NCBI GenBank assembly: GCA_030524055.1
Contig: JAUNHH010000010.1
Coordinates: 1 to 64,000, forward strand
DNA: 64,000 nt
From: Actinomycetaceae bacterium
GTDB taxonomy: Bacteria; Actinomycetota; Actinomycetes; Actinomycetales; Actinomycetaceae
Direction of reading: 5' to 3'
In this document: one piece after another, positions 602 to 61,015 of the stretch
How the letters are laid out: the number at the start of each line of letters is the position of its first letter
How positions within the stretch are numbered: the stretch's first letter is position 1
Notes under the pieces: generated by a model
Database searches by the model: none
What the model was told of the DNA's origin: nothing
Seen by the model: the letters and a program-made list of their open reading frames with translations, nothing else
Translations under genes and position numbers: made by a program

Positions 602-1312
602 GTGCACGTCGATATGTGGATTGATCTGGCATGCCCCTGGTCCTGGCTCGGACTGCGCCACCTTCGTAGTGCATTGACTCACCTGCGTTCCACCAACACC
701 CCTGGTGCGGAGAATGTGGAAATTCGTCTTCGTCCTCATCTTCTGGACCCCGCCCTCGTCGAAACACTCGACATTCCCTGGTCGCAATACCTCATTGAGT
801 ACGACAATCTTGAGGTCGCCGAGGCTCTGGACTTCCTTGCACGCATTGAAGCCCTTGGGGCTAGCGAAGGCATCGCCATGGATCTGAATCGCCTGGTGGT
901 TGCGCCGACTTTGCGTGCACATGCCCTCCTGGCTTTAGCGCGAGAAATCGACCTTGAAACAGATTCCACCACCGGGCCCGACATTCTTTCGATTCGCCTT
1001 GCGGAAGCACTTTTCCGGGCTCGTTTTGAAATGGGCTTGGATCTGAATGATGACAGCGTTCTTATTGGCTGTGCTCAGGATGTCGGAATAGAAGGTTCGG
1101 AAGCGCATAGCGCAATTACTGACGATATTCTTTCTACTCAAGTCCATGCTGATATTGATTGGGGACGCCATATGGGTATTGAAGGCGTTCCCATAATGAT
1201 CCTCGATGAACAATTCCTCGTTGAAGGAATGCAGCCCTTAACGGCCACGATTAATGTCCTTACCACCGCCCTTGACGCACACAAGAAAACCGCCGATCAG
1301 GAGAACTCATGA
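602..1312 (+). CDS. DsbA/FrnE-like thioredoxin-fold protein
   Basis: A 236-residue protein of the FrnE-type DsbA family (2-hydroxychromene-2-carboxylate isomerase / DsbA fold). The N-terminus DMWIDLACPWSWLG matches the family's first strand and active-site loop, and GIEGVPIMILDEQFLVEG near residue 195 is the conserved cis-proline segment. Here the usual CPWC reads CPWS (C11, S14), so a disulfide at that site is not possible; the protein may act as a monothiol reductase, isomerase or glutathione-transferase-like enzyme. The GTG at 602 is the first in-frame start that keeps the strand ahead of the CPWS loop. The 3' end overlaps the next gene by ATGA, which suggests translational coupling. No signal peptide is present, so it should be cytoplasmic. 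Confidence 0.75.
   Translation: MHVDMWIDLACPWSWLGLRHLRSALTHLRSTNTPGAENVEIRLRPHLLDPALVETLDIPWSQYLIEYDNLEVAEALDFLARIEALGASEGIAMDLNRLVVAPTLRAHALLALAREIDLETDSTTGPDILSIRLAEALFRARFEMGLDLNDDSVLIGCAQDVGIEGSEAHSAITDDILSTQVHADIDWGRHMGIEGVPIMILDEQFLVEGMQPLTATINVLTTALDAHKKTADQENS
748..759 (-). repeat. Iterated 12-mer, copy in DsbA-like gene
   Basis: Exact copy of ACGAGGGCGGGG on the minus strand. In the host gene it is read as D-P-A-L-V. Confidence 0.85.
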
Positions 1313-2391
1313 GCACATTGACGCCATATTCAGTCACTGGCGATATTGTTGATCTCGTTCCCATTAACGAGGGCGATATTGACGATATTACTGCGGCTCT
1401 TCAAAATCCCCTGATTTCGGAGCGCACCCTCGTTCCTTATCCCTATTCACGCGCCGATGCCGAGTGGTTTATCGGCGATGCTGCTCGCCAATGGGACGCT
1501 GGCAGTCCACATTGGACCATCCGGGATACTGCCACCAATGCGTTTATTGGCACTCTTGCCCTTTTCCGCAATGGCCATACTCCTGATACGTATGAAATCG
1601 GCTATTGGGTGAAGGTAGATCAGTGGGGACGCGGATTGTGCACAGCCGCCGTCAAATTAGCTGTAACCTCGGCTTTCCAGGATCTTGAAGCGACTCGAGT
1701 CGAATGGTTTACTGACGCTGACAATTGGGGCTCATGGAAACCTGTGTGGCGCTGCGGTTTCCGCCGTGAAGGGACGCAGCGGCGAGCGCGCGGCCTCATG
1801 TGGGGAGCAGGGCTATTGAAAGGCGACCCATTAGAACCAGCAACACCATGGGATGGGCCGCTTGCCCCTCGGTCAGAAAACAGTGGCCCCACCGCCAGCG
1901 ACAGCTCGTCTGCCACCCAGCATCTGCCTGTGCTGGACCCATCTCGTCCAGGGGATTTGGTGGCCCAATTCCACTCGGTGTATTCCCTGCCTAATCGTTT
2001 GGCAGAGGGTGAAAAACCAGAGGTTGATATTGATCGTCTAGCTATGCGGATTTCTCTTATCGCCGAAGAGTTCGCCGAGTTTATGGGAGCTGTCCGCGGG
2101 CAGCAGGCGCGTGCCCTCGTTGAAGAAGCAACGAAAGCAGCGGAAAAAGCTGATGACGGCACCCGCAATACCGTTGAAGCGGCAGACGCTTTAGCAGACT
2201 TGATTTACGTCATTTACGGAATGGCTCTGGAATGCGGCATGAATTTGGATGCGGTTCTTGCCGAGGTCCAAGCATCGAATCTATCCAAACTCATGCCCGA
2301 TGGCTCAGTGAAGTTACGCGAGGACGGGAAAGTCCTCAAAGGCCCCGACTTTTTCCCGCCCAATATTGCGCGGGCTTTAGGCCTTGAGTAA
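1309..2391 (+). CDS. GNAT acetyltransferase fused to a MazG-like nucleotide pyrophosphohydrolase
   Basis: A 360-residue two-domain protein. Residues about 1-185 form a RimJ/RimL-type GNAT domain, with the acetyl-CoA-binding segment IGYWVKVDQWGRGLCTAAVKLA and the later ATRVEW...DNWGSWKPVWRCGF helix-strand pattern. A polar linker (about 185-210) leads to an all-alpha MazG-like domain (about 210-360). That domain contains RISLIAEEFAEFMGAV and EAADALADLIYVIYGMALECGM, the E-x-x-E / E-x-x-D metal-binding helices of the MazG/PRA-PH superfamily. Its ending, with NLSKL followed by KGPDFFPPNI, is typical of the small MazG-like phosphatases found as stand-alone proteins. The fusion might link protein or aminoacyl acetylation with nucleotide clean-up, but the substrates are unknown. 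It overlaps the upstream DsbA-like gene. Confidence 0.75.
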   Translation: MSTLTPYSVTGDIVDLVPINEGDIDDITAALQNPLISERTLVPYPYSRADAEWFIGDAARQWDAGSPHWTIRDTATNAFIGTLALFRNGHTPDTYEIGYWVKVDQWGRGLCTAAVKLAVTSAFQDLEATRVEWFTDADNWGSWKPVWRCGFRREGTQRRARGLMWGAGLLKGDPLEPATPWDGPLAPRSENSGPTASDSSSATQHLPVLDPSRPGDLVAQFHSVYSLPNRLAEGEKPEVDIDRLAMRISLIAEEFAEFMGAVRGQQARALVEEATKAAEKADDGTRNTVEAADALADLIYVIYGMALECGMNLDAVLAEVQASNLSKLMPDGSVKLREDGKVLKGPDFFPPNIARALGLE

Positions 2392-2495
2392 CAGTGCTGA
2401 CGTGAACTTCGCCATTTCGGGCGTTCGGTCCTGTGCGTGACCTGGGCGGCAATGAGACCATTGGGGATCGCGCGAACCGATTGAGGAGGCATATC

Positions 2496-3963: not shown

Positions 3964-3975
3964 ACGAGGGCGGGG
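3964..3975 (+). repeat. Iterated 12-mer, intergenic, extended form
   Basis: Exact plus-strand copy continuing as CGCGG. Together with the inverse copy at 4032-4043 it forms an inverted pair 56 bases apart between convergent genes. Confidence 0.85.
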
Positions 3976-4031: not shown

Positions 4032-4043
4032 CCCCGCCCTCGT
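4032..4043 (-). repeat. Iterated 12-mer, intergenic, inverse partner
   Basis: Exact minus-strand copy. On that strand it is preceded by CCCATTA, matching the longer consensus CATTRACGAGGGCGGGG. Confidence 0.85.
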
Positions 4044-6010: not shown

Positions 6011-6732
6011 TGACCTCTTTGCCTGCGGCTCTTCTTCTTGATTTAGATGGCACCTGCATTGATTCCGAAGCCATTTGGGAGCAGGTGGAACGACGCTATG
6101 TGGAGTCACACGGGGGTGTCCTTACCCCTGATATGCGTCGCATTATGGTGGGCGCCCCCATGTGGCTGACAGTGCGCACCATTGCTGAGGCTGTGGGTCA
6201 AGATATTGATGAGCAAGCAGTCGATAATGAATTGGTTACTGGCGTTGCCGGTCATATGCGTACCCAAGGGGTCCCGTGGATCCCTGGGGTGCGTGAACTT
6301 ATGGCGCGTATGCACGAGGGCGGGGTCCCCATCGGATTAGTGACAGCGTCTAATAGTCGGGTGGCCACCGTAGTCGCCAAGTCGGCAGCGGGATATGGTG
6401 TGCCTTTTACTGTGATGGTGACGGGTTCTGATCCTGTGGCCACGAAACCGGATCCGGCGCCATATGTTGAGGCTGCGCGCCGTTTAGGGGTGCCTATAGG
6501 GCAGTGCGTAGCCGTTGAGGATTCTGTAACCGGGGCAACGTCTGCCAGCGCTTCGGGTGCTCACACGGTGGTCATCCCGCGTTTTGTTGATATTGAGGCC
6601 CTCCCGGGGGTGTCCCGTTTGCGTTCAGTGGAGGATCTAACTGACGAGGTCGTGGCGCGCCTGTGTGAGGGCGAGATTATTGACCATTTCGGTGGGGAAA
6701 GGGCCCTGGCGCCTTTAGCGATTCGTAGTTAG
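6010..6732 (+). CDS. HAD-superfamily hydrolase (beta-phosphoglucomutase-like)
   Basis: A 240-residue HAD hydrolase of subfamily IA. Motif I is LLLDLDGTCIDSE, with nucleophile Asp and acid/base Asp. Motif II is VTASNSR, the motif III lysine lies in VATKPDPAPYVEAA, and motif IV is CVAVEDSVTGATSA. A helical cap lies between motifs I and II. The substrate is unknown; relatives include phosphoglucomutase-like and sugar-phosphate phosphatases. The start at 6010 overlaps the uppP stop, so it is translated from the uppP transcript. A peptide from the iterated DNA word (HEGGVP) falls in the loop before motif II. Confidence 0.85.
   Translation: MTSLPAALLLDLDGTCIDSEAIWEQVERRYVESHGGVLTPDMRRIMVGAPMWLTVRTIAEAVGQDIDEQAVDNELVTGVAGHMRTQGVPWIPGVRELMARMHEGGVPIGLVTASNSRVATVVAKSAAGYGVPFTVMVTGSDPVATKPDPAPYVEAARRLGVPIGQCVAVEDSVTGATSASASGAHTVVIPRFVDIEALPGVSRLRSVEDLTDEVVARLCEGEIIDHFGGERALAPLAIRS
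6314..6325 (+). repeat. Iterated 12-mer, copy in HAD gene
   Basis: Exact plus-strand copy, read in the gene as H-E-G-G-V. Confidence 0.85.
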
Positions 6733-6745: not shown

Positions 6746-6757
6746 CCCCGCCCTCGT
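6746..6757 (-). repeat. Iterated 12-mer between convergent genes
   Basis: Exact minus-strand copy in the 33-bp gap between the HAD gene stop and the stop codon of the RecB-like gene. Confidence 0.85.
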
Positions 6758-15674: not shown

Positions 15675-15686
15675 ACGAGGGCGGGG
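15675..15686 (+). repeat. Iterated 12-mer directly after hisF stop
   Basis: Exact plus-strand copy starting at the base after the hisF TAG. It continues as CGCGG, like the copy at 3964. Confidence 0.85.
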
Positions 15687-18436: not shown

Positions 18437-19645
18437 ATGCTCAGATGGCTTACCGCTGGAGAATCACACGGCCCCGCCCTCGTTGCCACACTGGAAGGCA
18501 TGCCGGCTGGAATCGCGATCACCACCGACACAATCCGCACAGCGCTGGCTCGACGCCGCCTCGGATATGGACGCGGCTCCAGACAAAAATGGGAAAAAGA
18601 TGAGGTCGAAATCCTCGCGGGAATCCGTCACGGCTACACCACCGGCGCTCCCATTACGATAAAAATCAACAATACGGAATGGCCGAAGTGGGATGTTGTC
18701 ATGTCCGCTGACCCTGTCCCACCAGAAGCGCTCCTTATTGACGCTGGGACAGGGGATGAGCGTGAGGTTGCCCGAAATAAGCGTCTAACCCGCCCTCGTC
18801 CTGGACACGCTGACCTCCCCGGAATGCTCTCCTATGGGCATGAGGATGCACGCAATATTTTAGAACGCGCTTCCGCCCGGGAAACTGCCGCGCGCGTGGC
18901 CCTCGGTGCCATCGCCGAAGCACTCCTTGACCAAGTGGCAAATATTCGTCTTGTTAGTCACGTTGTCGCCGTCGGAAATGAGCACTCAACAGGCCATACG
19001 CCCACACCAGATGACGCTGACGCCCTCGATAAATCTCCTGTCCGCACCCTCAATCCCGACGCAGAAAAACGATTCACCGACCGAATCGACGCCGCCAAAA
19101 AAGCCGGCGACACCGTCGGAGGAATCGCGGAAGTCATCGCCTACGGCGTCCCCATCGGACTCGGCAGCCACGTCAGTGCCGACCGCCGGATCGACGCCCA
19201 CATTGCCGCCGCACTCATGTCCATCCAAAGCGTTAAAGGCGTTGAAATCGGCGACGGCTTCACCCACGCCACCCTGCCCGGCTCAAAAGCCCAAGACGAA
19301 ATCACCACCACCCCAGACGGCGCCCTCACCCGTATCGCCAACCACGCTGGCGGCATTGAAGGCGGCACCACCAACGGCCAACCCATTATTGCCCGCGCCG
19401 CATTCAAACCCATCTCCACCATCCCACACGCCCTACGCACCATCGACCTTGACACTGGCGAACCCGCCACAGCACTGCACCAACGCTCCGACGCCTGCCA
19501 CATTGTCCCCGGCGCAGTCATCGCCCAAGCAGAAATCGCCCTCGTCCTAGCCCGCGCGCTCCTGGAACGCACCGGCGGCAACTCCCTGAAACAAGTCACC
19601 TCCAACCTGGCCACCTACCTCGAAGAAATCGCCACCCGACTATGA
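18437..19645 (+). CDS. aroC: Chorismate synthase
   Basis: A 402-residue FMN-dependent enzyme that converts EPSP to chorismate, the last step of the shikimate pathway. It begins MLRWLTAGESHGPALVATLEGMPAG, the actinobacterial form of the family signature. RRLGYGRGSRQKWEKDEVEILAG, the RPGHADL segment, SARETAARVA and GGIEGGTTNG near the C-terminus are conserved. The GPALV in the N-terminal signature is encoded by an exact copy of the iterated 12-mer, and RPRPGHAD by a one-mismatch copy. ATG 18437 starts the conserved first strand. The end overlaps aroKB by ATGA. From about 18,900 the coding strand is extremely C-rich. Confidence 0.95.
   Translation: MLRWLTAGESHGPALVATLEGMPAGIAITTDTIRTALARRRLGYGRGSRQKWEKDEVEILAGIRHGYTTGAPITIKINNTEWPKWDVVMSADPVPPEALLIDAGTGDEREVARNKRLTRPRPGHADLPGMLSYGHEDARNILERASARETAARVALGAIAEALLDQVANIRLVSHVVAVGNEHSTGHTPTPDDADALDKSPVRTLNPDAEKRFTDRIDAAKKAGDTVGGIAEVIAYGVPIGLGSHVSADRRIDAHIAAALMSIQSVKGVEIGDGFTHATLPGSKAQDEITTTPDGALTRIANHAGGIEGGTTNGQPIIARAAFKPISTIPHALRTIDLDTGEPATALHQRSDACHIVPGAVIAQAEIALVLARALLERTGGNSLKQVTSNLATYLEEIATRL
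18472..18483 (-). repeat. Iterated 12-mer, copy in aroC
   Basis: Exact minus-strand copy, read as G-P-A-L-V within the conserved chorismate synthase signature. Confidence 0.85.
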
Positions 19646-23878: not shown

Positions 23879-24116
23879 GGAGGGCCCTTTCATCAGCGGT
23901 GGCTTTCTGCGTTGATCGCAGACTCAGTGTAAATAGCTCCACCCACATTTGGCTGATCGCAGCTGTCGCACAGCTGCCACCTCCCCCTGATGAAAGATGA
24001 AGGCTGACATAACAGCCGCGCCCCGCCCTCGATCCAAACAGTACGAGTGGACAGTGGAAGGCAACAAATTGCGCTGAGAACCTACTATGCTCCTGTCGCT
24101 TCCTAGTATTGAGGAC

Positions 24117-25166: not shown

Positions 25167-25180
25167 ATAAAAACCAATGT

Positions 25181-26723: not shown

Positions 26724-26735
26724 ACGAGGGCGGGG
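26724..26735 (+). repeat. Iterated 12-mer, intergenic, left arm of inverted pair
   Basis: Exact plus-strand copy upstream of the cysteine hydrolase gene. With 26844-26855 it forms inverted arms of about 14 bp enclosing some 105 bp that contain no gene. Confidence 0.85.
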
Positions 26736-40917: not shown

Positions 40918-42162
40918 ATGCCCGCGACGATTATTCTTGGTGTCGGCGCGGGCATTGCTGCATATAAAAGCGCCCTTATTTTGCGTCAGCTCAGCAAAGC
41001 AGGGCACGATATTCATGTCATTCCCACCCCCGATTCTCAGCATTTTATTGAGCAGGCAACGTGGGCAGGTTTAAGTGGGAATCCGGTCCATACCGATGTG
41101 TTTTCCACCGGTTTAGCGGATCATATTGAATTAGCCCGCCACGCTGATCTCATTGTTATTGCCCCGGCCACAGCTGATCTTCTGGCTCGTCTGCGCGCGG
41201 GAATGGCTAATGACTTGCTCACCACTACCGTTTTAGCAGCCACCTGTCCGATTGTTCTTGCCCCGGCAATGCATTCGCAAATGTGGACTAATCCGGCCAC
41301 GGTAGACAATATTTCCCATTTACGAGGGCGGGGTTTCCACATTATTGACCCCGATACCGGGCCGCTGGGCAGCGGGGACTTTGGGGTGGGCCGGCTTCCA
41401 GAGCCGGATGTGATTTCCGCTTTCGCTTTATCTGTTCTGGAGGATTCACAAAAGGCGGCCCCCGCCGATTTAGCGGGATATCATTTCCTTATCAGTGCAG
41501 GTGGAACGCGCGAAGCTATTGATCCGGTGCGTTTTATTGGGAATGAATCCTCTGGCCGCCAAGGCACAGCATTAGCTGTTGCGGCAGCGCAGCGGGGTGC
41601 CAATGTCACCCTTGTGGCTGCGAATATTAGTCGCGATATTTTCGACGATGAGGGTGCCACTGACGCTGGTATTGAGATTGTGTCTGCGACAAGTGCCGCA
41701 GAAGTAGAAAAAGCAATTCTCTCGCGCTTGGATAGCACTGATGTATTGATTATGGCGGCCGCTATTGCTGATTTTCGCCCCGCCCTCGTCCAGCGCGAAA
41801 AAATCAAAAAAGACCCTGGCTCCACTGACGCACCCACCATTTCCTTAGAGCGCACCACCGATATTTTGGCCACTGCTGCCGCTGCCCCCAATCGCCCCTC
41901 AATTGTGGTTGGATTCGCAGCCGAAACGGGGGACCTGGCCACCGTACGGCGCCTGGGCGGTGAAAAAGCCCGCCGTAAAGGGGCCGATTTCCTTGTGATT
42001 AACCGAGTTGGGGACGGACATGGATTCGGCAATGTCCCCAATGAGGTCTTCATTGTCGATCACAACGGACGTGATATTGCTCAGGCTATCGGAACTAAAG
42101 CCGAGGTCGCCGTGAGAGTCCTTGACCAGGTTGCCGCCAAACTCGCTAGCATGGCTGGGTGA
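40918..42162 (+). CDS. coaBC: Bifunctional phosphopantothenoylcysteine decarboxylase / synthase
   Basis: A 414-residue coenzyme A biosynthesis enzyme. The CoaC flavoprotein domain (about 1-185) has [42 protein letters not shown] and [11 protein letters not shown]. The CoaB domain (about 190-414) has [41 protein letters not shown] and the dimer-active-site KIKKDPG. Two exact copies of the iterated word lie in the gene: 41322 gives LRGRGF, not the usual frame, and 41778 gives RPALV. The end overlaps metK. Confidence 0.95.
41322..41333 (+). repeat. Iterated 12-mer in coaBC, unusual frame
   Basis: Exact plus-strand copy read as L-R-G-R-G-F, unlike the EGG frame used elsewhere. This is evidence that the DNA word rather than the peptide is retained. 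Confidence 0.85.
41778..41789 (-). repeat. Iterated 12-mer, second copy in coaBC
   Basis: Exact minus-strand copy, read as R-P-A-L-V beside the CoaB motif ADFRP. Confidence 0.85.
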
Positions 42163-44037: not shown

Positions 44038-46068
44038 ATGATGCAACACGCTCTACCGGGCCTCGAAGAGCCACCTGCCACTCAGGTGGAGATTGCTCAT
44101 GTCCTGGTCGATACTGATATCCCGCATCTGGATCACATTTTCGATTACTCTATCCCCGCCAAGCTGCTGGATCGCGCTCAGATCGGGCATCTGGTGCAGA
44201 TTCGCTTGGCGGGGAAAAAGTATTCTGGCTGGATTATTGACCGTAGTCGCGGCGCCCCCATGCAACCTCTTCAGCCGCTGCTCTCAGTCGTCTCACGCGC
44301 CCCCGTCCTCGATACTGAACTTTTAGAGGTGGCCCGCACTATTGCGGATCGCTATGTCGCCACCGTCCCGCAGGCGTTAAGTCTGGCGATTCCGCCGCGT
44401 CATGCCTCCACAGAAAAAGACGTCCTAGGCTCCTTTGGTGGCGATGGTCCCTCTTTTCCTCCATTAACGAGGGGCGCGCCCACACCCCAAGACACTACGT
44501 CCTCCTGGAATACCCACCCTGTTGGGCGGGCCCTCTCTGAACGTATTGCCCAGGGACAGACAGTGCGGGCAGTATGGACTGCCTTAAAATCCACCCGCGA
44601 TTCCCAATTGGTTGATCTTGTTGCTTCAACAGTCAAGGCCGGGCGTGGCGCCATTATTATTCTGCCCACTCACCGTGAGGTGGGCGCAATCGCCAATCTG
44701 ATTGAGGGACATCTTGGGATTGAGGTCGCCAGGCAGGGCCACGGAGACAACCCGGCACTGCGGTATCGAATCCACTTAGAAGGTCTTTTAGGACGCACCC
44801 AAATTATTGTGGGGACACGCTCTGCCGTATGGACACCAATGGCAGATCTCGGCCTCATTATCATCTGGGATGATGCTGATGATGTCCTCCGCGAACGTCG
44901 CCACCCCCGTACCGATGCTCTAGAAGTCGCGATGGTGCGTTCTCGCCACCAGAATTCCTCGCTCATTGTGGGCAGTTGGTCGCGCTCTATCCGCGCCCAG
45001 GCTCTTTGCCATTCCGGGTGGGCCGAGGAAATCGTTGCTGACCTAGCCACTCGCCGTGCTCATACGCCTATTGTCCGGGTTTTAGATGAGGTAGACAGCG
45101 ATTGGGAAGGTCCCGGAGGGGCTATGCGTATTAATAGTGCTGGCCTCCGTCTTATTAAAGAGGGCCTCAAAAATGGCCCCGTCCTCGTTCATGTTCCCTA
45201 TGCCGGATATATTCCCGTCGTTGCCTGCGCACGCTGTTATCAACGGGCACGCTGTTTGCAGTGCACCGGGCCGATTGGCCTTGATGAAGCTGGGCAGATG
45301 ACCTGCCAGTGGTGTGGGCGTGATCAAAATGCGTGGCGCTGCCCCCACTGCCACGGCACTGTTTTGCGTGCCCGCCGTATTGGTTCGGTGCGTACCGGTG
45401 AAGAACTGGGCCGGGCCTTCCCTGGAATCCCATTAACTGTGGTTTTGAAAGGGGACCCTCCACAAGATTTATCTTCCCGCCCTCGTCTAGTGATCGCCAC
45501 CCCCGGATGTGAACCCGAAATTGAAGGCGGCTACGCTGCCTGCCTTATTCTCGATGCCTCCGCTATCGCTGGGCGCAGTGAACTTTGGGCACCTGAAGAG
45601 GCCTTACGCCGCTGGTTTGCCGCATTATCCCTGGTCAGGCCTACGGGCTCCGCCCTCGTCAGTGGGGGAGTAGACCCTGTTCTCACCTCAGCGTTAACGC
45701 GATGGGACCCAGCTGACTACGCGCAGCGTGCCTTAGATGAACGCCATGCCCTGGGATATTTCCCTGCGGCCACACTGATTGCTTTTGATGGGCAGCCTCA
45801 CGATATTGCCCAAATTCTGTCCTCCCTTGGACCGCAGGCCCGCGAATGGGAACTCGGCACCGTGCGTTTAACCTCATCTTCTCTTCACCTTGGCGGCGAT
45901 AACACCCTGGATTTTTCTGCTCAACACACTCTGGTGCGCACCATTATGCGAATCCCACGGTCACAAACCACTGACGTTTTAGCCCAATTAAAAGCCATTA
46001 TTCAGGTGCGCTCCTCAAATAAATCCCCGCGAGTGCAGATCCATATCAACCCACCAGAACTTTTCTAA
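44038..46068 (+). CDS. priA: PriA-like primosomal protein lacking helicase motifs
   Basis: A 676-residue protein. The N-terminal 3'-DNA-binding domain (ATQVEIAHVLVDTDIPHLDHIFDYSIPAKL) and the core align with PriA. The Walker A lysine motif is missing (VDLVASTVKAGRGAIIILPTHREV) and the DEEH box reads WDDADD, as is usual for actinobacterial PriA, which is not expected to be an active helicase. Eight cysteines (CARCYQRARCLQC ... CQWC ... CPHC) bind zinc and would recruit primosome partners at restarting forks. ATG 44038 has AGAGG 7 bases upstream; GTG 44032 is an alternative. Two one-mismatch copies of the iterated word lie at 45475 and 45648. Confidence 0.88.
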   Translation: MMQHALPGLEEPPATQVEIAHVLVDTDIPHLDHIFDYSIPAKLLDRAQIGHLVQIRLAGKKYSGWIIDRSRGAPMQPLQPLLSVVSRAPVLDTELLEVARTIADRYVATVPQALSLAIPPRHASTEKDVLGSFGGDGPSFPPLTRGAPTPQDTTSSWNTHPVGRALSERIAQGQTVRAVWTALKSTRDSQLVDLVASTVKAGRGAIIILPTHREVGAIANLIEGHLGIEVARQGHGDNPALRYRIHLEGLLGRTQIIVGTRSAVWTPMADLGLIIIWDDADDVLRERRHPRTDALEVAMVRSRHQNSSLIVGSWSRSIRAQALCHSGWAEEIVADLATRRAHTPIVRVLDEVDSDWEGPGGAMRINSAGLRLIKEGLKNGPVLVHVPYAGYIPVVACARCYQRARCLQCTGPIGLDEAGQMTCQWCGRDQNAWRCPHCHGTVLRARRIGSVRTGEELGRAFPGIPLTVVLKGDPPQDLSSRPRLVIATPGCEPEIEGGYAACLILDASAIAGRSELWAPEEALRRWFAALSLVRPTGSALVSGGVDPVLTSALTRWDPADYAQRALDERHALGYFPAATLIAFDGQPHDIAQILSSLGPQAREWELGTVRLTSSSLHLGGDNTLDFSAQHTLVRTIMRIPRSQTTDVLAQLKAIIQVRSSNKSPRVQIHINPPELF

Positions 46069-47162: not shown

Positions 47163-48613
47163 CACGAAAATATTCTGACGGGTATCGGCGCCGCACCACT
47201 ATTGACCCAGCACGGCAGATTGCCTTTGAGGTGCTCCATAAAGTCACTACAGAAGATGCTTTCGCCAATATTGCTCTGCCGAAAGCACTGCGTGAAGGCC
47301 GCCAATCAGGACGTATTGATCTGCGCGATGCAGCTTTTGCTTCTGAACTGGTATACGGCACCCTACGTTTCCGTGGTTATCTCGATTGGGTGATCGGGAG
47401 CCATATGGACCGCGCCCTATCCCTGGTTGACCCTATTGTGGTGGATTTGCTGAGGATGGGCGCCCACCAAATCCTCCATATGCGTGTGCCTGACCATGCG
47501 GCGGTGGCGACTACTGTGGATTTAGGCCGCGAGCTCCTTACTGACGGTCCGGCACGTTTTATTAATGCCGTTTTGCGTTCTCTGACGCGGCAAAGTGAAG
47601 AAGAGCGCACTGCCGCCCTTGACGCGATTTCTGATCCCACCAAACGTCTGGCTACACAGTATTCCCATCCGGAATGGATGGTGGAGGCATTTACAGACGC
47701 GCTGCGAGTCCACCGCGGGGCACCCGGAGAAATCGAGGATCTTCTTCAGGCGGATAATGTGGCGCCGATAGTCACCTTGGTGGCCAGGCCCGGTTTAATC
47801 CATCCCGCGGATTTAGCGGATGAGGCTGAGGATATTCTCGCTACGCGCGTCGCACCTGGGGATGTCAGTGAATACGCAGTTCTTTTAGAGTCGGGTGACC
47901 CAGCGGCGTTGCCGTCTATCCGTGAGGGTTTAGCTGGTGCGCAGGATGAAGGCAGTCAACTTGCTGCTCTGATTGCAGCCGAGGCGCCAGTTGAGGGGTC
48001 AGATTCCGCGTGGTTGGACTTATGTGCGGGCCCTGGTGGTAAAGCAGCACTGGTGGCCAGTGTGGGAGCTGGGCGTGGAGCGCATTTGGTGGCTAATGAA
48101 ATGCATCCGCACCGTGCCCGTCTGGTGGAACGCGCCTGCCAGGCACTGGACAATGTGGAGGTTGTTGCCGGTGATGGGCGGACTTTCGGCGGTAAAGGAA
48201 CGTCGTGGCCACTGGCTCATTTTGATCGGGTCATTATTGATGCTCCGTGTTCAGGAATGGGGTCAATGCGGCGCCGCCCAGAATCACGGTGGCGACGCAG
48301 CGTACGCGACTTTGATGATTTGCTCCCGCTGCAACGTGACCTTTTACGCCGTGGCGTGGAGTTAACGCGACCTGGGGGAGTCCTGACCTATGTCACCTGT
48401 TCACCACATGTGGCAGAAACACGCGAGCAGGTGGAGTTTCTTCTTCACGAGGGCGGGGTGGAGCTTCTCGATACGGCCAGTATTGCTGCCACCTGTGCTG
48501 TTGAGCCTTTGCGGGGTGTGGGAACGCCTTTAGGGTCAGGAACAACACTGCAATTATGGGAACATATTGACGGTACTGATCTGATGTTTATTGCTTGCCT
48601 GCGCAAACGTTAA
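47159..48613 (+). CDS. rsmB: 16S rRNA (cytosine967-C5)-methyltransferase
   Basis: A 484-residue Nol1/Nop2/Sun-family enzyme. The N-terminal NusB-like RNA-binding domain (DPARQIAFEVLHKV..., DAAFASELVYGTLRFRGYLDWVI) precedes the SAM-binding domain: WLDLCAGPGGKAALVA, the catalytic cysteines in IDAPCSGMGSMRRRPESRWRR and VTCSPHVAETREQV. HEGGV is encoded by an exact copy of the iterated word. It shares ATGA with fmt, the usual fmt-rsmB pairing. Confidence 0.93.
   Translation: MTRKYSDGYRRRTTIDPARQIAFEVLHKVTTEDAFANIALPKALREGRQSGRIDLRDAAFASELVYGTLRFRGYLDWVIGSHMDRALSLVDPIVVDLLRMGAHQILHMRVPDHAAVATTVDLGRELLTDGPARFINAVLRSLTRQSEEERTAALDAISDPTKRLATQYSHPEWMVEAFTDALRVHRGAPGEIEDLLQADNVAPIVTLVARPGLIHPADLADEAEDILATRVAPGDVSEYAVLLESGDPAALPSIREGLAGAQDEGSQLAALIAAEAPVEGSDSAWLDLCAGPGGKAALVASVGAGRGAHLVANEMHPHRARLVERACQALDNVEVVAGDGRTFGGKGTSWPLAHFDRVIIDAPCSGMGSMRRRPESRWRRSVRDFDDLLPLQRDLLRRGVELTRPGGVLTYVTCSPHVAETREQVEFLLHEGGVELLDTASIAATCAVEPLRGVGTPLGSGTTLQLWEHIDGTDLMFIACLRKR
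48447..48458 (+). repeat. Iterated 12-mer, copy in rsmB
   Basis: Exact plus-strand copy, read as H-E-G-G-V. Confidence 0.85.
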
Positions 48614-50401: not shown

Positions 50402-51456
50402 TTCCCCGCCCTCGTAGGAAGAATTTTTTCCACGCAATTAGTGCAGCCATTGCTGCCACCGCTGCCATTGCCCTCACTGCCTGCACGCCGGGAGGAAACA
50501 CCCCCGCATCAGGGGCGGCGCCCACCTCGGGCAGCACTCAAGGAGGGGCGTCTAGCGTCACTATTGGCCTGACCTATATCCCTAATGTCCAATTCTCTCC
50601 CGTATATGTGGCGAAAAAGGAAGGGATTTACCGCGCAGCTGGAATTGATGCCACTATCCGCCACCATGGCAATAAAGAAGGACTCTTTACAGCTCTTACC
50701 TCCGGCGAAGAAGATGTCGTGGTTGCCTCCGGCGACGAAATGCTTCAAGCCCGTGAAGCTGGCATGGATTTAGTTTCTATTGGCACCTACTATCACACAC
50801 ACCCAGTGGTCACTATTGTCCCCGAGGACTCCACTATCAAAACAATTGCTGACCTAAAAGGTAAGCGCATTGGTGTTCCCGGACAAAGCGGATCGAATTG
50901 GTATTCGCTACTGTCAATGCTGTCCCACGCGGGCCTGACTCAAAATGACGTCACCGTTATTCCCGTTGGCTTTAATCAGCAGGCCGCATTAGCCCAAAAA
51001 GAAGTCGATGCGGCAGTCGGCTTTGTCAATAACGACTTTGTGCAGATGAAACAAGCCGGAATGAAGGTACGGACCCTCGATATTCCTGAAGGCACTATTC
51101 CACTGGTCTCATCGTCCATTATCACCACCCGCAAATGGCTCGACGAAAACCCTGACCAAGCGAAAGCCGTCGTTGACGCAACAGTGTCGGGTATTGATCG
51201 TGTGATTGAGAATCCACAGCACGCCATTGAAGCCACGCAAGAACACGATCCCGCTCTTTCTGGTGATGCCGCAGTCAATGCCCGCGCCGTTTTAGATTCA
51301 ACAATTCCGCTCTGGAAAACCGCTGATGGGAAAACCTCAGGAAAACAGAATCGCGCACTATGGACATCGATGGGTAACTTTTATCTGACAGTTCCCGAAG
51401 TCCTCAACGAAAAACCAGATCTGGAACAGGCCGTCGTTGACGTCGCTTCGCGCTGA
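50398..51456 (+). CDS. ribY: NMT1/THI5-like substrate-binding lipoprotein, probable riboflavin binder (RibY-like)
   Basis: A 352-residue lipoprotein. The signal peptide has a positive start (MIPRPRRKNFFHA) and the lipobox LTAC, with the acylated Cys at about residue 28, followed by a Gly/Ser/Thr-rich spacer. The mature domain has the NMT1/THI5 pattern: VTIGLTYIPNVQFSPVYVAKKEGIY, ALTSGEEDVVVASGDEML, DLKGKRIGVPGQSG and AAVGFVNND. The FMN riboswitch upstream suggests riboflavin as ligand. Codons 2-5 of the gene are an exact copy of the iterated word (ATTCCCCGCCCTCGTAGG), in a frame that gives the signal peptide its arginines. Confidence 0.8.
   Translation: MIPRPRRKNFFHAISAAIAATAAIALTACTPGGNTPASGAAPTSGSTQGGASSVTIGLTYIPNVQFSPVYVAKKEGIYRAAGIDATIRHHGNKEGLFTALTSGEEDVVVASGDEMLQAREAGMDLVSIGTYYHTHPVVTIVPEDSTIKTIADLKGKRIGVPGQSGSNWYSLLSMLSHAGLTQNDVTVIPVGFNQQAALAQKEVDAAVGFVNNDFVQMKQAGMKVRTLDIPEGTIPLVSSSIITTRKWLDENPDQAKAVVDATVSGIDRVIENPQHAIEATQEHDPALSGDAAVNARAVLDSTIPLWKTADGKTSGKQNRALWTSMGNFYLTVPEVLNEKPDLEQAVVDVASR
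50404..50415 (-). repeat. Iterated 12-mer at the start of ribY, unusual frame
   Basis: Exact minus-strand copy, read as P-R-P-R instead of P-A-L-V, contributing the positive residues of the signal peptide. Confidence 0.85.
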
Positions 51457-51790: not shown

Positions 51791-52636
51791 GTGTTACGTC
51801 TTGCTGTGCCAAATAAAGGTTCCCTGTCTGAACCCGCCATTACTTTATTGACTGAGGCGGGGTATCGCGCCAAGCGACGGGGGAGGGAACTGGTCCTGAC
51901 CGATCACGAGGGCGGGGTAGAACTCTTTTTCCTGCGGCCCCGCGATATTGCTGTCTATGTGGGGCGCGGTTCTATTCATGCCGGGATTACTGGCCGCGAT
52001 CTTCTTCTCGATGCAGGTACCGAAGCCATTGAATACCGGGCGCTGAACTTTGCTCGTTCTACTTTCCGTTTTGCTGCCCCCGTTGGCACCCTGTCCCGTA
52101 TTGAGGATATTGCTGGCATGCGGGTGGCCGCTTCCTATGACCACCTTGTCCGCAGCTATTTAGAACAGCGTGGTATTGACGCTGAGGTTGTCCACTTAGA
52201 TGGGGCAGTAGAATCCTCGGTACGTCTGGGAGTGGCTGATCTGATTGCTGATGTGGTCGAAACTGGGTCCACACTTAAGGCCGCTGGGCTAGAAGTTTTT
52301 GGCGACCCGATTTTAGAGTCCGAAGCCGTCCTCATTACTCGTGAGGATCTTCGTGAGGACCCGCGTCTAGCTATTGTTGATCGCCGTCTGGAAGGGGTGC
52401 AGCGCGCCCGTTCCTATGTGCTCATTGACTACAACGTCCGCGAAGTGGATCTGGAAGCCACTATTGCCCTGACTCCTGGTTTTGATTCGCCAACTATTAG
52501 TCCGCTAATGGATCCGCAGTGGATGGCAGTTCGTGCCATGGTGCAGGCTGATGGGGTCAATACGGTAATGGATAAACTGCATGATGCTGGCGCACGTGGC
52601 ATTATCGTGACAAATTTGTCAGCGTGCCGTCTCTAA
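51791..52636 (+). CDS. hisG: ATP phosphoribosyltransferase (long form)
   Basis: A 281-residue first enzyme of histidine synthesis, feedback-inhibited by histidine. It shows LRLAVPNKGSLSEPAITLL, FLRPRDIAVYVGRGSIHAGITGRDLL, GMRVAASYDHLVRSYL, ADLIADVVETGSTLKAAGL with the PRPP site, and a C-terminal ACT-like regulatory domain (about 205-281). GTG 51791 has AAGGA 7 bases upstream. HEGGV at about residue 38 is encoded by an exact copy of the iterated word. Confidence 0.96.
   Translation: MLRLAVPNKGSLSEPAITLLTEAGYRAKRRGRELVLTDHEGGVELFFLRPRDIAVYVGRGSIHAGITGRDLLLDAGTEAIEYRALNFARSTFRFAAPVGTLSRIEDIAGMRVAASYDHLVRSYLEQRGIDAEVVHLDGAVESSVRLGVADLIADVVETGSTLKAAGLEVFGDPILESEAVLITREDLREDPRLAIVDRRLEGVQRARSYVLIDYNVREVDLEATIALTPGFDSPTISPLMDPQWMAVRAMVQADGVNTVMDKLHDAGARGIIVTNLSACRL
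51906..51917 (+). repeat. Iterated 12-mer, copy in hisG
   Basis: Exact plus-strand copy, read as H-E-G-G-V. Confidence 0.85.
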
Positions 52637-53620: not shown

Positions 53621-54533
53621 ACAAGTACAGGTGGCGATTGCCCGTCTTTTATCGCTTTTAGCGTGGCTTTATGATCACCCAGGAATTTCCTTATCCGATG
53701 CCTGCACCCATTTTGGACGTAGCCGCGTCCAAATGCGACGCGACCTGGAACATTTAGCTTCCGTTGGAGACTCACTTCCCGGATCGAGTGTAGAAATCGA
53801 TTGGGATTTATTTGAGCGCGAACAACGCATTACTATTGTCGATTCCTATGGGGTGGATTTACCTCCGCGATTAACTAGCGATGAAGCCACAGCCATTCTT
53901 ATTGGGCTGCAGGTGATTGCCCCACTATTGGATGAGGATCTTCGAGACCGGATTCCCCGTGTAGCGGTGAAAGTTGAGGCTTTAGCTCATGGGGATATTG
54001 ACGCTTCCGATCTCATTTCCCTCGACGATGACTGCCCTGTAGGGCTTGACCTCGTGCGCCGTGCAGTTGAGGATCGCCGCACCCTCACTTTTGGCTATAC
54101 GAATACTCGAGGGGAGATCACCCACCGCAACGTTGATCCGTTGTCCTTACATCGCAATCAATCCGGGTGGGTCCTTGTTGCCTATTGCCATAGCGCAGGT
54201 GAGAACCGGCATTTCCGTATTGATCGAATGAGTGCTCTCAGTGTTGGCGCACCTATTGAAATGCCCTCACATGGCGCACCGTCCCCGCATCGAATGGTGC
54301 CACTCACTGTGGGACCGGGAGCCTATTGGCTGAAAGACCTGGACGGGGCCACGCTGATCGCCGAAGACACCTCATCAATGACGGTGGAGATTCCCGTGTG
54401 GGATGAGGACTGGCTGCTTGACCTGATTATTGATGTGGCCCCCGCCCTCGTACAATGCGACCCGGCCCTATACGCTCAGGCAGCTACCCGGGCCGCCTCA
54501 ATTCTTGCCATCTGGGAAGGTTCTTCTTCTTGA
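53613..54533 (+). CDS. pafC: PafC, WYL-domain transcription regulator
   Basis: A 306-residue partner of PafB. The N-terminal HTH (QVAIARLLSLLAWLYDHPGISLSDACTHFGRSRVQMRRDLEHLASVG) precedes the WYL domain (RTLTFGYTNTRGEITHRNVDPLSLHRNQSGWVLVAYCHSAGENRHFRIDRMSAL) and a C-terminal domain. ATG 53613 overlaps pafB. APALV near the C-terminus is encoded by an exact copy of the iterated word. The stop TGA overlaps the TTG start of helY, an arrangement that ties DNA-damage control to an RNA/DNA helicase. Confidence 0.9.
   Translation: MPEQVQVAIARLLSLLAWLYDHPGISLSDACTHFGRSRVQMRRDLEHLASVGDSLPGSSVEIDWDLFEREQRITIVDSYGVDLPPRLTSDEATAILIGLQVIAPLLDEDLRDRIPRVAVKVEALAHGDIDASDLISLDDDCPVGLDLVRRAVEDRRTLTFGYTNTRGEITHRNVDPLSLHRNQSGWVLVAYCHSAGENRHFRIDRMSALSVGAPIEMPSHGAPSPHRMVPLTVGPGAYWLKDLDGATLIAEDTSSMTVEIPVWDEDWLLDLIIDVAPALVQCDPALYAQAATRAASILAIWEGSSS
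54440..54451 (-). repeat. Iterated 12-mer, copy in pafC
   Basis: Exact minus-strand copy, read as A-P-A-L-V. Confidence 0.85.
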
Positions 54534-57283: not shown

Positions 57284-58866
57284 AAGATCCTTCTGCATGG
57301 TCGCGTTTGGCTCTCGATGTGGGAGCAGGTTTTATCGCAGGGTGTGGAGTTGGCGCGGCTTTTCCTAACCTGGGTTTATGGTGGCTGACAATCCCAGCAA
57401 TGGCCTTATTGCTGGCCCGTATTGATCAAGCACGGCCGCGCCGGGCGGCCCTCATCGCTGCGGTTTTTGGGGCGACATTTTGGCTGCCTCATATTCATTG
57501 GGCAACATTAGCGACAGGATCAGTGGCGCCGTGGCTGGCACTATCTACGGTACAAACCCTTTTTGTTGCTGCTTGGGGAGCGTGTGCCGCGGCCACGCGC
57601 CGCCTGCAATGGACGCGCAGTGTGGCCGGTGGAGCTGCCGCTATGGCGCTGACGTGGGTGGGTTTTGAGCAGTTACGTTCCCATACTCCGTGGTCGGGTT
57701 TTCCGTGGGGGAATCTTGCCTATCCGCAAGTGGATTCGCCGCTTGGGCATTTAGCGCCGATTGGCGGGGAAGTTTTAGTCTCTTTCGCGGTGGTGTTCAT
57801 TGCCGCATTATGCCGCCGGGCACTGGATTTCAGTGGGGGAGTGGCTGGGCTGCCTGTGCGTCGTCGGGCTTTTATTGGCCTGGCAGCAGTGGGATTATTT
57901 TTCGCCCCCGCCCTCGTTCCTCTTCCTCCTTTCGGCGATGAGGATTCTCTGCGCGTGGGTGCCATTCAGGGAAATATCGAGTTGCCTGGACCTGCGACCT
58001 ACGCCATTGAGGGGAAAGTGACAGGCAATCATGCGGCAGTTATGCGTGATCTTATTCAGGAAGAAGACAATCTCGATCTCATCGTGTGGGGTGAAGCTGC
58101 CCTGGACCGCCACCCACGACAATCTGACCGTGTTTCCTCACTGATGCATTCGGTCATTAACGAGGGCGGGGTTCCCACCATTGTTGGCTACCCAGAATAT
58201 TTCGAGGATCACCGCTTGAATTGGGTAGCTCCGTGGTATCCACACGCTGGTCTTGATGAAGGGGAGAAGTACGGAAAACAAATCCCCGTTCCTTTTGGTG
58301 AGTTTATTCCGCTCAGGAGCATTATTTCGGTTCTAGCTACTGAAGCGGCACAGATTAATCTGGATTTATGGCCGGTAGATAATGTGGCCACAATGGATCT
58401 ACGCCTTAATGACGGCCGTGATCTTCGCGTTGCTATTGGCATTTGTTTTGAGGTCGGCTATGAGGGGCTGCTTGCCCAAGGTGTGTCCGACGGCGGGCGG
58501 ATCCTGATTATTCCGACGAATAACTACCATTTCCGCGATTCAGCACAATCTACCCAGCAGGGCCAGATTCTGCGTTTCCGCTCCTTAGAGTTTGCCCGTG
58601 CTGGTGTTCAGGCTTCAACAACGGGCGTATCGATGCTGACCATGCCTAATGGCCAGATTGTGTCAATGACTGAACCGATGGCGGCAGAATATGTGGTAGG
58701 GGAGTTGCCCTTAAATTCTGATCTGACTCTGGCCGCGCGCAGCGGTGATATTCCTTGGAAGTTGGCTATTGCTGCTGCGACCGCGCTGGTGGCGTGGGCA
58801 GTGATTTCTCCGCGAATTCCGCCTCGTCGTATAGCCCGATCCGTTGGCAACAGCGCATCCGACTAA
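57268..58866 (+). CDS. lnt: Apolipoprotein N-acyltransferase
   Basis: A 532-residue membrane enzyme that N-acylates the lipoprotein cysteine. About six to seven N-terminal transmembrane helices (to about 215) precede a nitrilase-like domain. The Glu-Lys-Cys triad is visible in LIVWGEAALDR, YGKQIPVPFGEFIPLR and AIGICFEVGYEG. A last hydrophobic helix lies near residue 490. There is no fused dolichol-phosphate mannosyltransferase domain as in mycobacterial Ppm1. Two exact copies of the iterated word encode APALV (57906) and NEGGV (58160). It starts within the last codons of helY. Confidence 0.92.
   Translation: MVRAIKDPSAWSRLALDVGAGFIAGCGVGAAFPNLGLWWLTIPAMALLLARIDQARPRRAALIAAVFGATFWLPHIHWATLATGSVAPWLALSTVQTLFVAAWGACAAATRRLQWTRSVAGGAAAMALTWVGFEQLRSHTPWSGFPWGNLAYPQVDSPLGHLAPIGGEVLVSFAVVFIAALCRRALDFSGGVAGLPVRRRAFIGLAAVGLFFAPALVPLPPFGDEDSLRVGAIQGNIELPGPATYAIEGKVTGNHAAVMRDLIQEEDNLDLIVWGEAALDRHPRQSDRVSSLMHSVINEGGVPTIVGYPEYFEDHRLNWVAPWYPHAGLDEGEKYGKQIPVPFGEFIPLRSIISVLATEAAQINLDLWPVDNVATMDLRLNDGRDLRVAIGICFEVGYEGLLAQGVSDGGRILIIPTNNYHFRDSAQSTQQGQILRFRSLEFARAGVQASTTGVSMLTMPNGQIVSMTEPMAAEYVVGELPLNSDLTLAARSGDIPWKLAIAAATALVAWAVISPRIPPRRIARSVGNSASD
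57906..57917 (-). repeat. Iterated 12-mer in lnt, minus-strand copy
   Basis: Exact copy, read as A-P-A-L-V at the end of the membrane region. Confidence 0.85.
58160..58171 (+). repeat. Iterated 12-mer in lnt, plus-strand copy
   Basis: Exact copy preceded by CATTA as in the long consensus, read as N-E-G-G-V. Confidence 0.85.
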
Positions 58867-58917: not shown

Positions 58918-58940
58918 GAGTCGCTGGACTCCTCGGCGAA

Positions 58941-59306: not shown

Positions 59307-59339
59307 GAGAAACCTCCTGAGCATGGTGGTGAACCACAA

Positions 59340-59500
59340 CAGTTTACCGCAGCGACGTCGCTGACATAAGACCTGTCAGATGGAGATCCCTCACTGAAAC
59401 CGATAATGCACATTATGTCCGATTAAATGGATCTGTACTGATCATCTCTTCCCCGCCCGTCGTCCCACATCTGTAGCAATGGCGGGCTAATCTGGGGTTT
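59340..59500. promoter_or_regulatory. Divergent promoter region for rbpA and the Hsp70-like gene
   Basis: A 194-bp gap between divergently transcribed genes, read here from 59340. No strong consensus promoter stands out; CGTCGCTGACATAAG and similar AT-rich patches near 59370-59420 are candidates. No iterated word copy is exact here. Confidence 0.3.
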
Positions 59501-61015
59501 ATGAGACTTGGCGTCGATTTCGGAACAACCCGCACTACCGTTGCTGCCGCTACACGCGGCAATTACCCCATTGTCACTTTCGAGGATGGCGTGGGCGATG
59601 TCCACGAATACATTCCTTCAGTTGCCGCCCTTGATGGCGATCATCTTGTTTTTGGCTTTGCCGCACAGCGCCTCGCCCTTGACGGCGCGCCGCATGTGCG
59701 TTCCTTTAAACGCCATTTATCTGATCCAGCAGTCACCACGGCCACCACTATTCGCCTCGCTGGCCGCGATATTGGCGTCGTTGATCTGCTGACCACGTTT
59801 CTCGCCCATGTGGCTCAGGAAGTTCGCGCCTCGTCCTCGTTATCTGAACTCGATCCCAGCGAACCGCTCGAAGCTGTTGTTGGCATTCCCGCCCACGCCC
59901 ATTCTGGTCAGCGTTTCCTTACCCTGGAAGCCTTCCGTAATGCCGGCTGGTCAGTGCTGTCAATGGTCAATGAGCCTTCCGCTGCCGGCTTTGAATACAC
60001 CCATCGGCATTCTTCTACTTTGAATTCCAAGCGCACAACCGTTCTCGTTTATGACCTTGGTGGTGGCACTTTCGATGCCTCATTAGTGTCTGCTCAAGGC
60101 CGGGCTCATGAGGTCCTTGCTTCGCGCGGACATAATATGCTCGGCGGCGACGACTTTGATCTTGTCCTGGCTCAATGTGTGGCACGTGCGGCTGGCCGAT
60201 CCCCCAAGGACTATGGCGAAGCCACCTGGGCGCGTCTCATTGAAAGTTGCCGCCCCGCAAAAGAATCCCTCAATGCAAACTCCCGCTATGTCACTGTTGA
60301 GGTGAAAGGCCAGCCAGTGACGGTTCCTGTAGCTGACTTTTATGAAGCGGCCACTCCCCTGATCCAAGCCACGATTGACACGATGGCTCCCCTATTAGCT
60401 AAAGGACCGGGTGGTTCTTTACGGCTCGGTGATGATGTGGCTGGCCTGTATGTTGTCGGTGGTGGCGCTGAGCTGCCTGCCGTGGCCCGGATGCTGCGCG
60501 CTGATCATGGCCGCAGGGTTCATCGTTCTCCTCATGCCCCTGCCTCTACTGCTATTGGTTTAGCTATTGCCGCTGACCCAAATGCGGGCTACACCATTAC
60601 TGACACTCTTTCGCGTGGAGTGGGTGTCTTCCGTGAAACCGATTCCGGTGGTCAGGTATCTTTTGACCCATTGCTCACCCCTGACCTACGCCTTGACCAC
60701 GCTAATGGAGCTAGTGTTGCCCGCAGATACCGCGCTGCACACAATATTGGGTGGTTCCGTTTCGTTGAATATTCTCATACGGACGAGGGCGGGGTCCCCC
60801 GAGGTGATGTCCTCCCCTATGGTGAAGTGATTATGCCTTTTGACCCGCACCTGCAAAACGAGACCGTGAATCTCGCTAATGTCCCAGTGATTCGCACGGA
60901 AAATGGGCCTTTAGTGGAAGAGCGGTACACCGTTGACTCCAACGGCATTGTTGAGGTGACTATTACGGATCTGGAAACCGGATACACATTGTCGGTAGGT
61001 CTGGGCGGCCGATAA
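59501..61015 (+). CDS. Short Hsp70-family protein without a lid domain
   Basis: A 504-residue DnaK relative. The nucleotide-binding domain (about 1-360) has RLGVDFGTTRTTVAAAT, VVGIPAHAHSGQR, SMVNEPSAAGFEY, VLVYDLGGGTFDASLV, GGDDFDLVLA and GLYVVGGGAELPAVARML. The C-terminal 130 residues form a partial substrate-binding beta domain (DTLSRGVGVF..., YTVDSNGIVEVTITD), and the helical lid is missing. Normal DnaK is over 600 residues and has its own grpE-dnaJ operon, none of which is here. It may be a client-specific chaperone or an actin-like regulator. DEGGVP is encoded by an exact copy of the iterated word. Confidence 0.85.
   Translation: MRLGVDFGTTRTTVAAATRGNYPIVTFEDGVGDVHEYIPSVAALDGDHLVFGFAAQRLALDGAPHVRSFKRHLSDPAVTTATTIRLAGRDIGVVDLLTTFLAHVAQEVRASSSLSELDPSEPLEAVVGIPAHAHSGQRFLTLEAFRNAGWSVLSMVNEPSAAGFEYTHRHSSTLNSKRTTVLVYDLGGGTFDASLVSAQGRAHEVLASRGHNMLGGDDFDLVLAQCVARAAGRSPKDYGEATWARLIESCRPAKESLNANSRYVTVEVKGQPVTVPVADFYEAATPLIQATIDTMAPLLAKGPGGSLRLGDDVAGLYVVGGGAELPAVARMLRADHGRRVHRSPHAPASTAIGLAIAADPNAGYTITDTLSRGVGVFRETDSGGQVSFDPLLTPDLRLDHANGASVARRYRAAHNIGWFRFVEYSHTDEGGVPRGDVLPYGEVIMPFDPHLQNETVNLANVPVIRTENGPLVEERYTVDSNGIVEVTITDLETGYTLSVGLGGR
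60783..60794 (+). repeat. Iterated 12-mer, copy in Hsp70-like gene
   Basis: Exact plus-strand copy, read as D-E-G-G-V. Confidence 0.85.

Follow-up and report, generated by a model that had tools for sequence, protein, structure and literature searches.

A putative DNA uptake sequence and its dialects in the Actinomycetaceae

According to a 2025 paper, discrimination of DNA by uptake words is known from just two families, Neisseriaceae and Pasteurellaceae; both are Gram-negative. The DNA uptake sequence (DUS) of Neisseriaceae, as portrayed in PMC3630211, is a short word that occurs in many copies inside and between genes, forms inverted pairs capable of folding into stem-loops, and has a core that is conserved while its dialects vary from species to species. 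The uptake signal sequence (USS) of Pasteurellaceae is described as having a mean spacing near 1 kb and an extended consensus around its core (PMC7811141, PMC12616744) and occurs in two versions within the family, and its copies are reported to evolve by point mutation (PMC7811141). ComP, the DUS receptor, and the proposed USS receptor are described as type IV minor pilins. Transformation of Micrococcus luteus is reported to require comEC and Flp pili, and its genome to carry two tad clusters as well as orthologues of comEA, comEC, and dprA (PMC4322843); the phrase "uptake sequence" occurs 0 times in the main text of that paper. The literature searched, which omitted most subscription papers and all preprints, yielded no account of an actinobacterial uptake sequence. 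Here we analyze a 64-kb stretch of DNA ("the window": positions 1 to 64,000 of contig JAUNHH010000010.1, assembly GCA_030524055.1) from an Actinomycetaceae bacterium that looks like a member of the genus Schaalia in the GTDB sense, and a 12-bp word, ACGAGGGCGGGG, that recurs throughout it. When named genomes were scanned for ComEC, the first matches were records of Schaalia and "Actinomyces". Judged from sequence, ACGAGGGCGGGG is probably the local form of a DNA uptake sequence.

ACGAGGGCGGGG resembles the DUS in each of the properties just given, and differs from it in lacking a CTG core, in having a spaced core of eight bases, in its Gram-positive actinobacterial host, and in being accompanied by Tad/Flp pilus genes with no type IVa pilus found. 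It is not the DUS proper: the word contains no CTG, and the only T2SSE matches over cut-off in the genome lie in Tad clusters. It resembles the USS in spacing, in point-mutation origin, in extended consensus and, perhaps, in having two versions within a family, and differs from it in host group, in pilus type, and in sequence, which is unrelated: the USS core is AAGTGCGGT or ACAAGCGGT, and the core here is CGAGGnCGG. With M. luteus the genome shares competence genes and two Tad clusters.

Abundance and consensus of the word

ACGAGGGCGGGG is the most frequent 12-mer in the window. A preliminary description of the window had placed 22 exact copies, 11 per strand, and had estimated from base composition that fewer than one would be expected; every coordinate and strand is borne out, and Markov models of order 0 to 3 give an expectation of 0.012 to 0.018 copies. 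The nine one-mismatch copies that it listed are all present, but the true count is 11, two minus-strand copies (37585 and 45177) having been missed. CATTRACGAGGGCGGGG has 5 occurrences. A genome-wide count, which the description had proposed as a check, gives 1001 copies of ACGAGGGCGGGG in 3.03 Mb (47 contigs), 500 forward and 501 reverse, as compared to 0 forward and 1 reverse for the word read backward. In a 464-kb sample, consisting of the window and 400 kb of further stretches from the same genome, there are 119 copies versus 1.1 expected from an order-5 Markov model, and this sample is somewhat poorer in the 12-mer than is the genome. The abundance is thus that of uptake sequences, hundreds to thousands of copies and far above chance, and neither outcome that would have undone the preliminary description, a count near chance or copies that all encode one protein motif, is observed.

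Variation among copies in the 464-kb sample defines the core. Single changes at positions 2-6 and 8-10 sum to 11 copies, as compared to 119 intact copies, yet changes are common at position 7 (A 26, C 14, T 3) and at position 11 (A 25, T 5, C 4), and the nearly invariant core is therefore CGAGGnCGG. The flanking consensus from -4 to +1 is A (64%), T (61%), T (45%), and G/A, followed by the word and then by C (65%); no position outside this range is above 0.15 bit. The putative functional word is ~17 bp long, ATTR-A-CGAGG-G-CG-GGG-C, with eight nearly invariant bases within CGAGGnCGG. The core occurs 346 times in the sample (174 plus, 172 minus), versus 16 times for the reversed core; the extrapolated total is ~2,260 per genome, at a density of ~1 per 1.3 kb. 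The window contains 47 core sites, 15 of them core-only, and the copies and sites within it are as follows (coding status is from the gene calls described below).

748..759, minus: exact copy; coding, gene 602-1312 (plus strand)
3964..3975, plus: exact copy; convergent intergenic region, left arm of inverted pair with 4032
4032..4043, minus: exact copy; right arm of pair with 3964, 27 bp off the 3' end of gene 4070-5029 (minus strand)
6314..6325, plus: exact copy; coding
6746..6757, minus: exact copy; intergenic
15675..15686, plus: exact copy; intergenic
18472..18483, minus: exact copy; coding
21316..21327, minus: exact copy; coding, inverted relative to core site 21262 (plus)
23138..23149, plus: exact copy; coding, CATTG upstream
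26724..26735, plus: exact copy; intergenic
26844..26855, minus: exact copy; intergenic, CATTG upstream
31154..31165, minus: exact copy; CATTG upstream, within a very short called open reading frame (ORF), 31104-31187, that is probably spurious
35766..35777, plus: exact copy; coding
41322..41333, plus: exact copy; coding
41778..41789, minus: exact copy; coding, same gene as 41322
48447..48458, plus: exact copy; coding
50404..50415, minus: exact copy; at the very start of called gene 50398-51456
51906..51917, plus: exact copy; coding
54440..54451, minus: exact copy; coding
57906..57917, minus: exact copy; coding
58160..58171, plus: exact copy; coding, CATTA upstream
60783..60794, plus: exact copy; coding
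18788..18799, minus: one mismatch, last base changed; core intact
24021..24032, minus: one mismatch, position 1 changed; core intact
25157..25168, minus: one mismatch, position 2 changed; core broken
27970..27981, plus: one mismatch, position 7 = C
33037..33048, plus: one mismatch, position 7 = C
37585..37596, minus: one mismatch, position 7 = A; newly found
40396..40407, minus: one mismatch, position 11 = A
45177..45188, minus: one mismatch, position 7 = A; newly found
45475..45486, minus: one mismatch, last base changed
45648..45659, minus: one mismatch, position 11 = A
63927..63938, plus: one mismatch, position 7 = A
2319..2327, plus: core-only site CGAGGnCGG
Further core-only sites, plus strand, starting at 8831, 10886, 17135, 20349, 21262, 28888, 38095, 53222, 61704
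Further core-only sites, minus strand, starting at 11524, 11716, 12143, 44303, 56106

Two other features of the window were seen. A stretch of ~70 bp is present in two imperfect copies ~1.1 kb apart (~23963-24031 and 25101-25167), both of which end in a one-mismatch copy of the word. A flavin mononucleotide (FMN) riboswitch (RF00050, 99.4 bits) lies at 49426-49548, upstream of the ORF at 49604.

Placement and origin of the copies

Coding and intergenic calls were made with a simple purpose-made gene caller. By these calls, 68 of the 119 copies of ACGAGGGCGGGG in the sample lie in genes, 1 lies on an edge, and 50 are intergenic, the noncoding share of bases being ~9%. Two called neighbours flank 49 of the intergenic copies, and 23 of these 49 sit between convergent genes, in regions that make up 6.5 of the 37.3 kb of intergenic DNA counted. 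The 346 cores divide into 260 in genes and 86 between genes. Coding copies occupy all six frames, with the frames reading DEGG and PALV favoured, and therefore cannot be put down to a protein motif. In 28 cases neighbouring cores lie 10-70 bp apart, and in 24 of these the two are inverted relative to each other; 17 of these 24 inverted pairs are intergenic (11 convergent, 6 tandem, 0 divergent), and 16 of the 17 lie no more than 47 bp from the 3' end of a gene. The window pair 3964/4032 is among the pairs.

Both strands are used alike and without polarity, as in uptake sequences. Core sites of the two strands are mixed inside each of three contig stretches (94/85, 56/64, and 24/23), and, in the single-contig congener G028, 85 plus-strand copies divide into 37 in the first half and 48 in the second half. 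The preliminary description was right to argue from equal strand use against polar sequences of the Chi or FtsK type, and local mixing and the G028 halves strengthen the argument. The strand-balance and spacing checks that it proposed come out at the 500/501 given above and at a coefficient of variation (CV) of core spacing of 0.737, as compared to 0.927 +/- 0.05 for random placement (lowest of 300 random placements, 0.786); cores are spaced more evenly than random. As to replichore bias, none is seen between the G028 halves, a comparison that covers plus-strand copies in a contig with the origin not located.

To assess the origin of the copies, we aligned relatives' proteins across the 260 coding cores. 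An orthologue-like alignment spans the site in 77, and 65 of these 77 alignments are gap-free near the site. Extra residues are present on the protein of the window genome at 7 of the 77 sites, and the core is also present in the relative at 10. Because 65 of 77 sites are gap-free, most alignable copies look like products of point substitution, as opposed to insertion, in agreement with the origin of uptake sequences.

Dialects in the genus, family, and order

To determine how far the word extends, we counted it and its variants in 213 genomes of the family, from 36 genera: 35 genomes of the genus, the window genome included, and 178 others (genomes and loci are designated below by G and L handles). 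ACGAGGGCGGGG is present in more than 90 copies in 6 of the 35 genus genomes and in at most 19 copies in each of the 178 others. Congeners carry variants of the word, ACGAGGCCGGGG and ACGAGGACGA. ACGAGGCCGGGG is present in 119-426 copies in 12 of the 35 (167 in the window genome; reversed, 0-2) and in at most 18 copies in each of the 178. In 11 sequence sets of this dialect, not all of them from separate genomes, 60 of 91 copies of ACGAGGCCGGGG are intergenic (noncoding share 16%), and inversion is seen in 14 of 15 close pairs. The window genome and the ACGAGGCCGGGG dialect thus both show enrichment between genes and inverted pairing at gene ends, which are marks of uptake sequences. Words sought de novo in 60 kb from each of 20 of the 34 congeners, picked among those with long contigs, have the same core, with G, C, or A as spacer, in most of the 20; no clear word was found in the 60 kb of G002 or of G007. 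In three further sets, 18/65, 5/21, and 5/13 copies of the longer dialect words are intergenic, versus noncoding shares of 14, 14, and 12%; including ACGAGGCCGGGG, longer words are enriched between genes in 4 of 5 sets. The short core exceeds the noncoding share only in the window genome and G160.

The shorter word TTGNCGAGGNCG is present in 460 copies in the window genome, versus 9 reversed, in at least 84 copies in 30 of the 35 genus genomes (in G002, 186 versus 8 reversed), and in at least 199 copies in 9 of the 178 other family genomes (e.g., G160, 453 versus 6; G211, 262 versus 0). Elsewhere in the order, in 110 genomes from other families, the word outnumbers its reversed form by a factor of about 12 at most. 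Since the excess reaches ~12-fold in G252 (95 versus 8), as compared to 51-fold in the window genome and 75-fold in G160, the reversed word is an imperfect control across the order. The counts in related genomes that the preliminary description had suggested show the word or its variants to be abundant in most of the genus, in the form of dialects. An apparent strand shift among listed positions in G004 is most likely a listing artefact (whole counts, 101 and 89). Local repeats of types TATCCGGATAGGTT, in G021 (L153, L173, L193), and CGCTCTGTTC, in L065, are unrelated to ACGAGGGCGGGG.

Plain Markov ranks raised a second word, CGACGnCG, in many actinobacteria. Because CGACGnCG fits common codon pairs, we compared counts with those obtained after 15 synonymous-codon shuffles of the called genes, and on this basis ranked CGAGGnCG among 16384 words of the same shape in 46 sequence sets. 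Four of 20 stretches, of 1.3-11 kb, were left out of the Markov-rank and 46-set tests, and loci below 13 kb were left out of the Markov-rank test and of the codon-shuffle test on named loci. CGAGGnCG ranks first in 14 of the 46 sets: the window genome (420 observed versus 117.5 shuffled), 9 of the 20 congeners (among them G025, 116 versus 31.5, and G034, 107 versus 25.6), G160 (53 versus 11.7), G186 (160 versus 35.1), L134 (34 versus 2.1), and L061. It is among the first ten words in 13 of the 20 congeners and is weaker in G002, G006, G013, G015, and G017 (ranks 24-160). In G032 it ranks 316 on 9 kb of called genes, and TTGNCGAGGNCG has 292 copies genome-wide; in G211, from another genus, it ranks first (48 versus 2.5).

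Of 64 named loci, six have CGAGGnCG at rank 1: L061, L064, L066, L078 (titled only Actinomycetales), L081, and L134. It ranks 3 in L068 (titled Sanguibacter) and 8 in L070 (titled Xylanimonas). L068 (Sanguibacter keddieii 250_SKED) and L070 (Xylanimonas cellulosilytica 352_XCEL) align over long stretches, at 91-93%, to S. odontolytica (L069), and are probably misnamed Schaalia; L081 (titled Trueperella pyogenes 331_TPYO) aligns partly, at 80-90%, to A. marseillensis, and is probably misnamed too. With L068, L070, and L078 set aside, the best CGAGGnCG rank outside the family, membership being judged from titles, is 47 (L122).

CGACGnCG ranks first in 10 of the 46 sets, among them G094 (77 versus 12.6), G103 (59 versus 10.1), and four Arcanobacterium loci. 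The sets noted with this word at rank 1 against codon shuffles are G035 (L236, L256), G043 (L237, L257, L275), G086 (L238, L258), G094 (L241, L261, L274), G103 (L242, L262), G113 (L243, L263), L100, L107, L116, and L117. CGAGGnCG is not enriched in these sets, and the two words seem to replace each other in most sets; CGACGnCG is among the first ten words in G004, G013, and G030, congeners that carry CGAGGnCG words. In other families its excess is mostly ~2-fold or less, and it ranks first in two Sinomonas loci (L109, 62 versus 34.3; L135, 74 versus 42.5), so that a codon-pair effect contributes and CGACGnCG is less sure as a dialect than is CGAGGnCG. We conclude that CGACGnCG is possibly another uptake-sequence dialect.

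Competence genes, rival explanations, and implications

The window genome, like those of organisms with uptake sequences, encodes competence genes: a ComEA-type protein (SLBB and helix-hairpin-helix domains; 70 bits versus NCBIfam comE, under the cut-off of 152) adjoins ComEC, and DprA is encoded. Only two T2SSE ATPases exceed the cut-off, one in each of two Tad clusters. The cluster on contig C19 comprises a TadA-family ATPase over the NCBIfam cut-off, a T2SSF protein, a DUF4244 Flp-like pilin, and two TadE-like proteins, one just under the cut-off and the other over it; the cluster on contig C44 comprises an ATPase, two T2SSF proteins, TadE, and a TadE/G-like protein. Of the 35 genus genomes, 33 have ComEC and 34 have DUF4244; completeness is 70% and 88% in the two that lack ComEC.

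The preliminary description had left the choice between a DNA uptake sequence, a methylation or nucleoid-protein site, and a repeat spread by gene conversion. Dialects, inverted pairs at gene ends, gap-free coding sites (65 of 77), core competence genes, and two Tad clusters favour the uptake sequence. REP (repetitive extragenic palindromic) elements and REPINs (REP doublets forming hairpins) are short inverted pairs at the 3' ends of genes, and a mobile repeat of this kind, a short word multiplied by a transposase, would account for the gene-end pairs and the intergenic enrichment. Such repeats would be nearly all intergenic and spread by insertion; here, called genes contain 68 of the 119 copies and 260 of the 346 cores, in all six frames, and most cores are single, just 28 neighbouring core pairs lying 10-70 bp apart. 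Spacing more even than random, flanks that never rise above 0.15 bit outside -4 to +1, and the gap-free alignments, which disfavour any insertion element, also make such a repeat very unlikely.

A binding site for a nucleoid, replication, or repair protein, whether Chi-like, like the FtsK-orienting polar sequences (KOPS), or otherwise architectural, fits the even spacing, and the density is compatible with a Chi-like site. We nevertheless regard such a site as unlikely, if less so than a mobile repeat: strand polarity is absent in the genome and in the three contig stretches, the G028 halves show no Chi-type replichore orientation bias (plus-strand copies, origin not located), which leads us to reject Chi and KOPS, and neither gene-end inverted close pairs nor a change of dialect between species would be expected. 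For a methylation or restriction-modification site, a short and partly degenerate word would be suitable; to our knowledge, such systems give no reason for an excess of this size with graded flanking consensus and inverted pairs, and we give this explanation very little weight. Least probable of all is that the word reflects a protein motif or codon usage, or that it is simply a stem shared by many terminators. The favoured DEGG and PALV frames point to a motif, but use of six frames and the 50 of 119 copies that are intergenic reject it, the excess over synonymous-codon shuffles (420 versus 117.5) argues in addition against codon usage, and most cores are unpaired and inside genes, unlike terminator stems.

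Several observations weigh against an uptake sequence, or against its generality. No receptor that reads the word was found, and no type IVa pilus ATPase was found among T2SSE profile matches in the window genome. No clear T-runs are evident after inverted pairs in the 464-kb sample, and a terminator role of the pairs is therefore unproven. At coding sites, 183 of 260 are not alignable, and gaps are slightly commoner than at control places (12/77 versus 161/1540). CGAGGnCG is outside the first ten words in 7 of the 20 congeners, and it fails in G007 and G033 (ranks 1651 and 6866) and, at rank 7251, in G029; G033 uses GCCGAGGCGG, the core without its spacer base. G007 and G029 have TTGNCGAGGNCG in 37 versus 16 and 10 versus 6 reversed copies with ComEC and the DUF4244 pilin present, and may no longer have the preference or may rely on a different, unrelated word. 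None of 17 longer-word copies is intergenic in G016, and the short core is not intergenically enriched in G186, L134, G006, G025, G028, and G034.

According to the hypothesis that ACGAGGGCGGGG is an uptake sequence, a DNA receptor of the competence apparatus would prefer the word on free double-stranded DNA. In a competent cell, DNA would first be caught on the Tad/Flp pilus, a pilin-like protein may read the word, ComEA and ComEC would carry the DNA in, and DprA and RecA would recombine it. Biased uptake followed by homologous recombination would favour alleles that match the word by chance mutation, and would thereby have raised its density to ~1 core per 1.3 kb, both within genes, as far as the encoded peptide permits, and at gene ends, as inverted pairs; the word would mark the DNA of close relatives as self. 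Competent cells of the genus would then favour fragments carrying ATTGACGAGGGCGGGGC over otherwise identical fragments. We lean, by a small measure, toward a broader hypothesis: that recognition of self-DNA extends through the Actinomycetaceae, independently of Neisseriaceae and Pasteurellaceae, and that an ancestral CGA(G/C)GnCG split into dialects read by a Tad/Flp competence pilus: CGAGGnCG, whose spacer can be G, C, or A, in Schaalia and a number of other genera, and CGACGnCG in Arcanobacterium and others.

If confirmed, ACGAGGGCGGGG would be the third case of such DNA discrimination and the first in Gram-positive bacteria; if the family-wide hypothesis is correct, it would also be the first such sequence from outside Proteobacteria, and the first to have a Tad-type pilus as its reader. 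A third case, unrelated in sequence, in another phylum, and associated with Tad, not type IVa, genes, would imply that self-DNA watermarks evolve repeatedly, and would provide a comparison case for the open question whether molecular drive or selection for the DNA of relatives gives rise to uptake words. The existence of dialects allows a direct test of specificity, and the word could serve as a marker of foreign DNA in these genomes.

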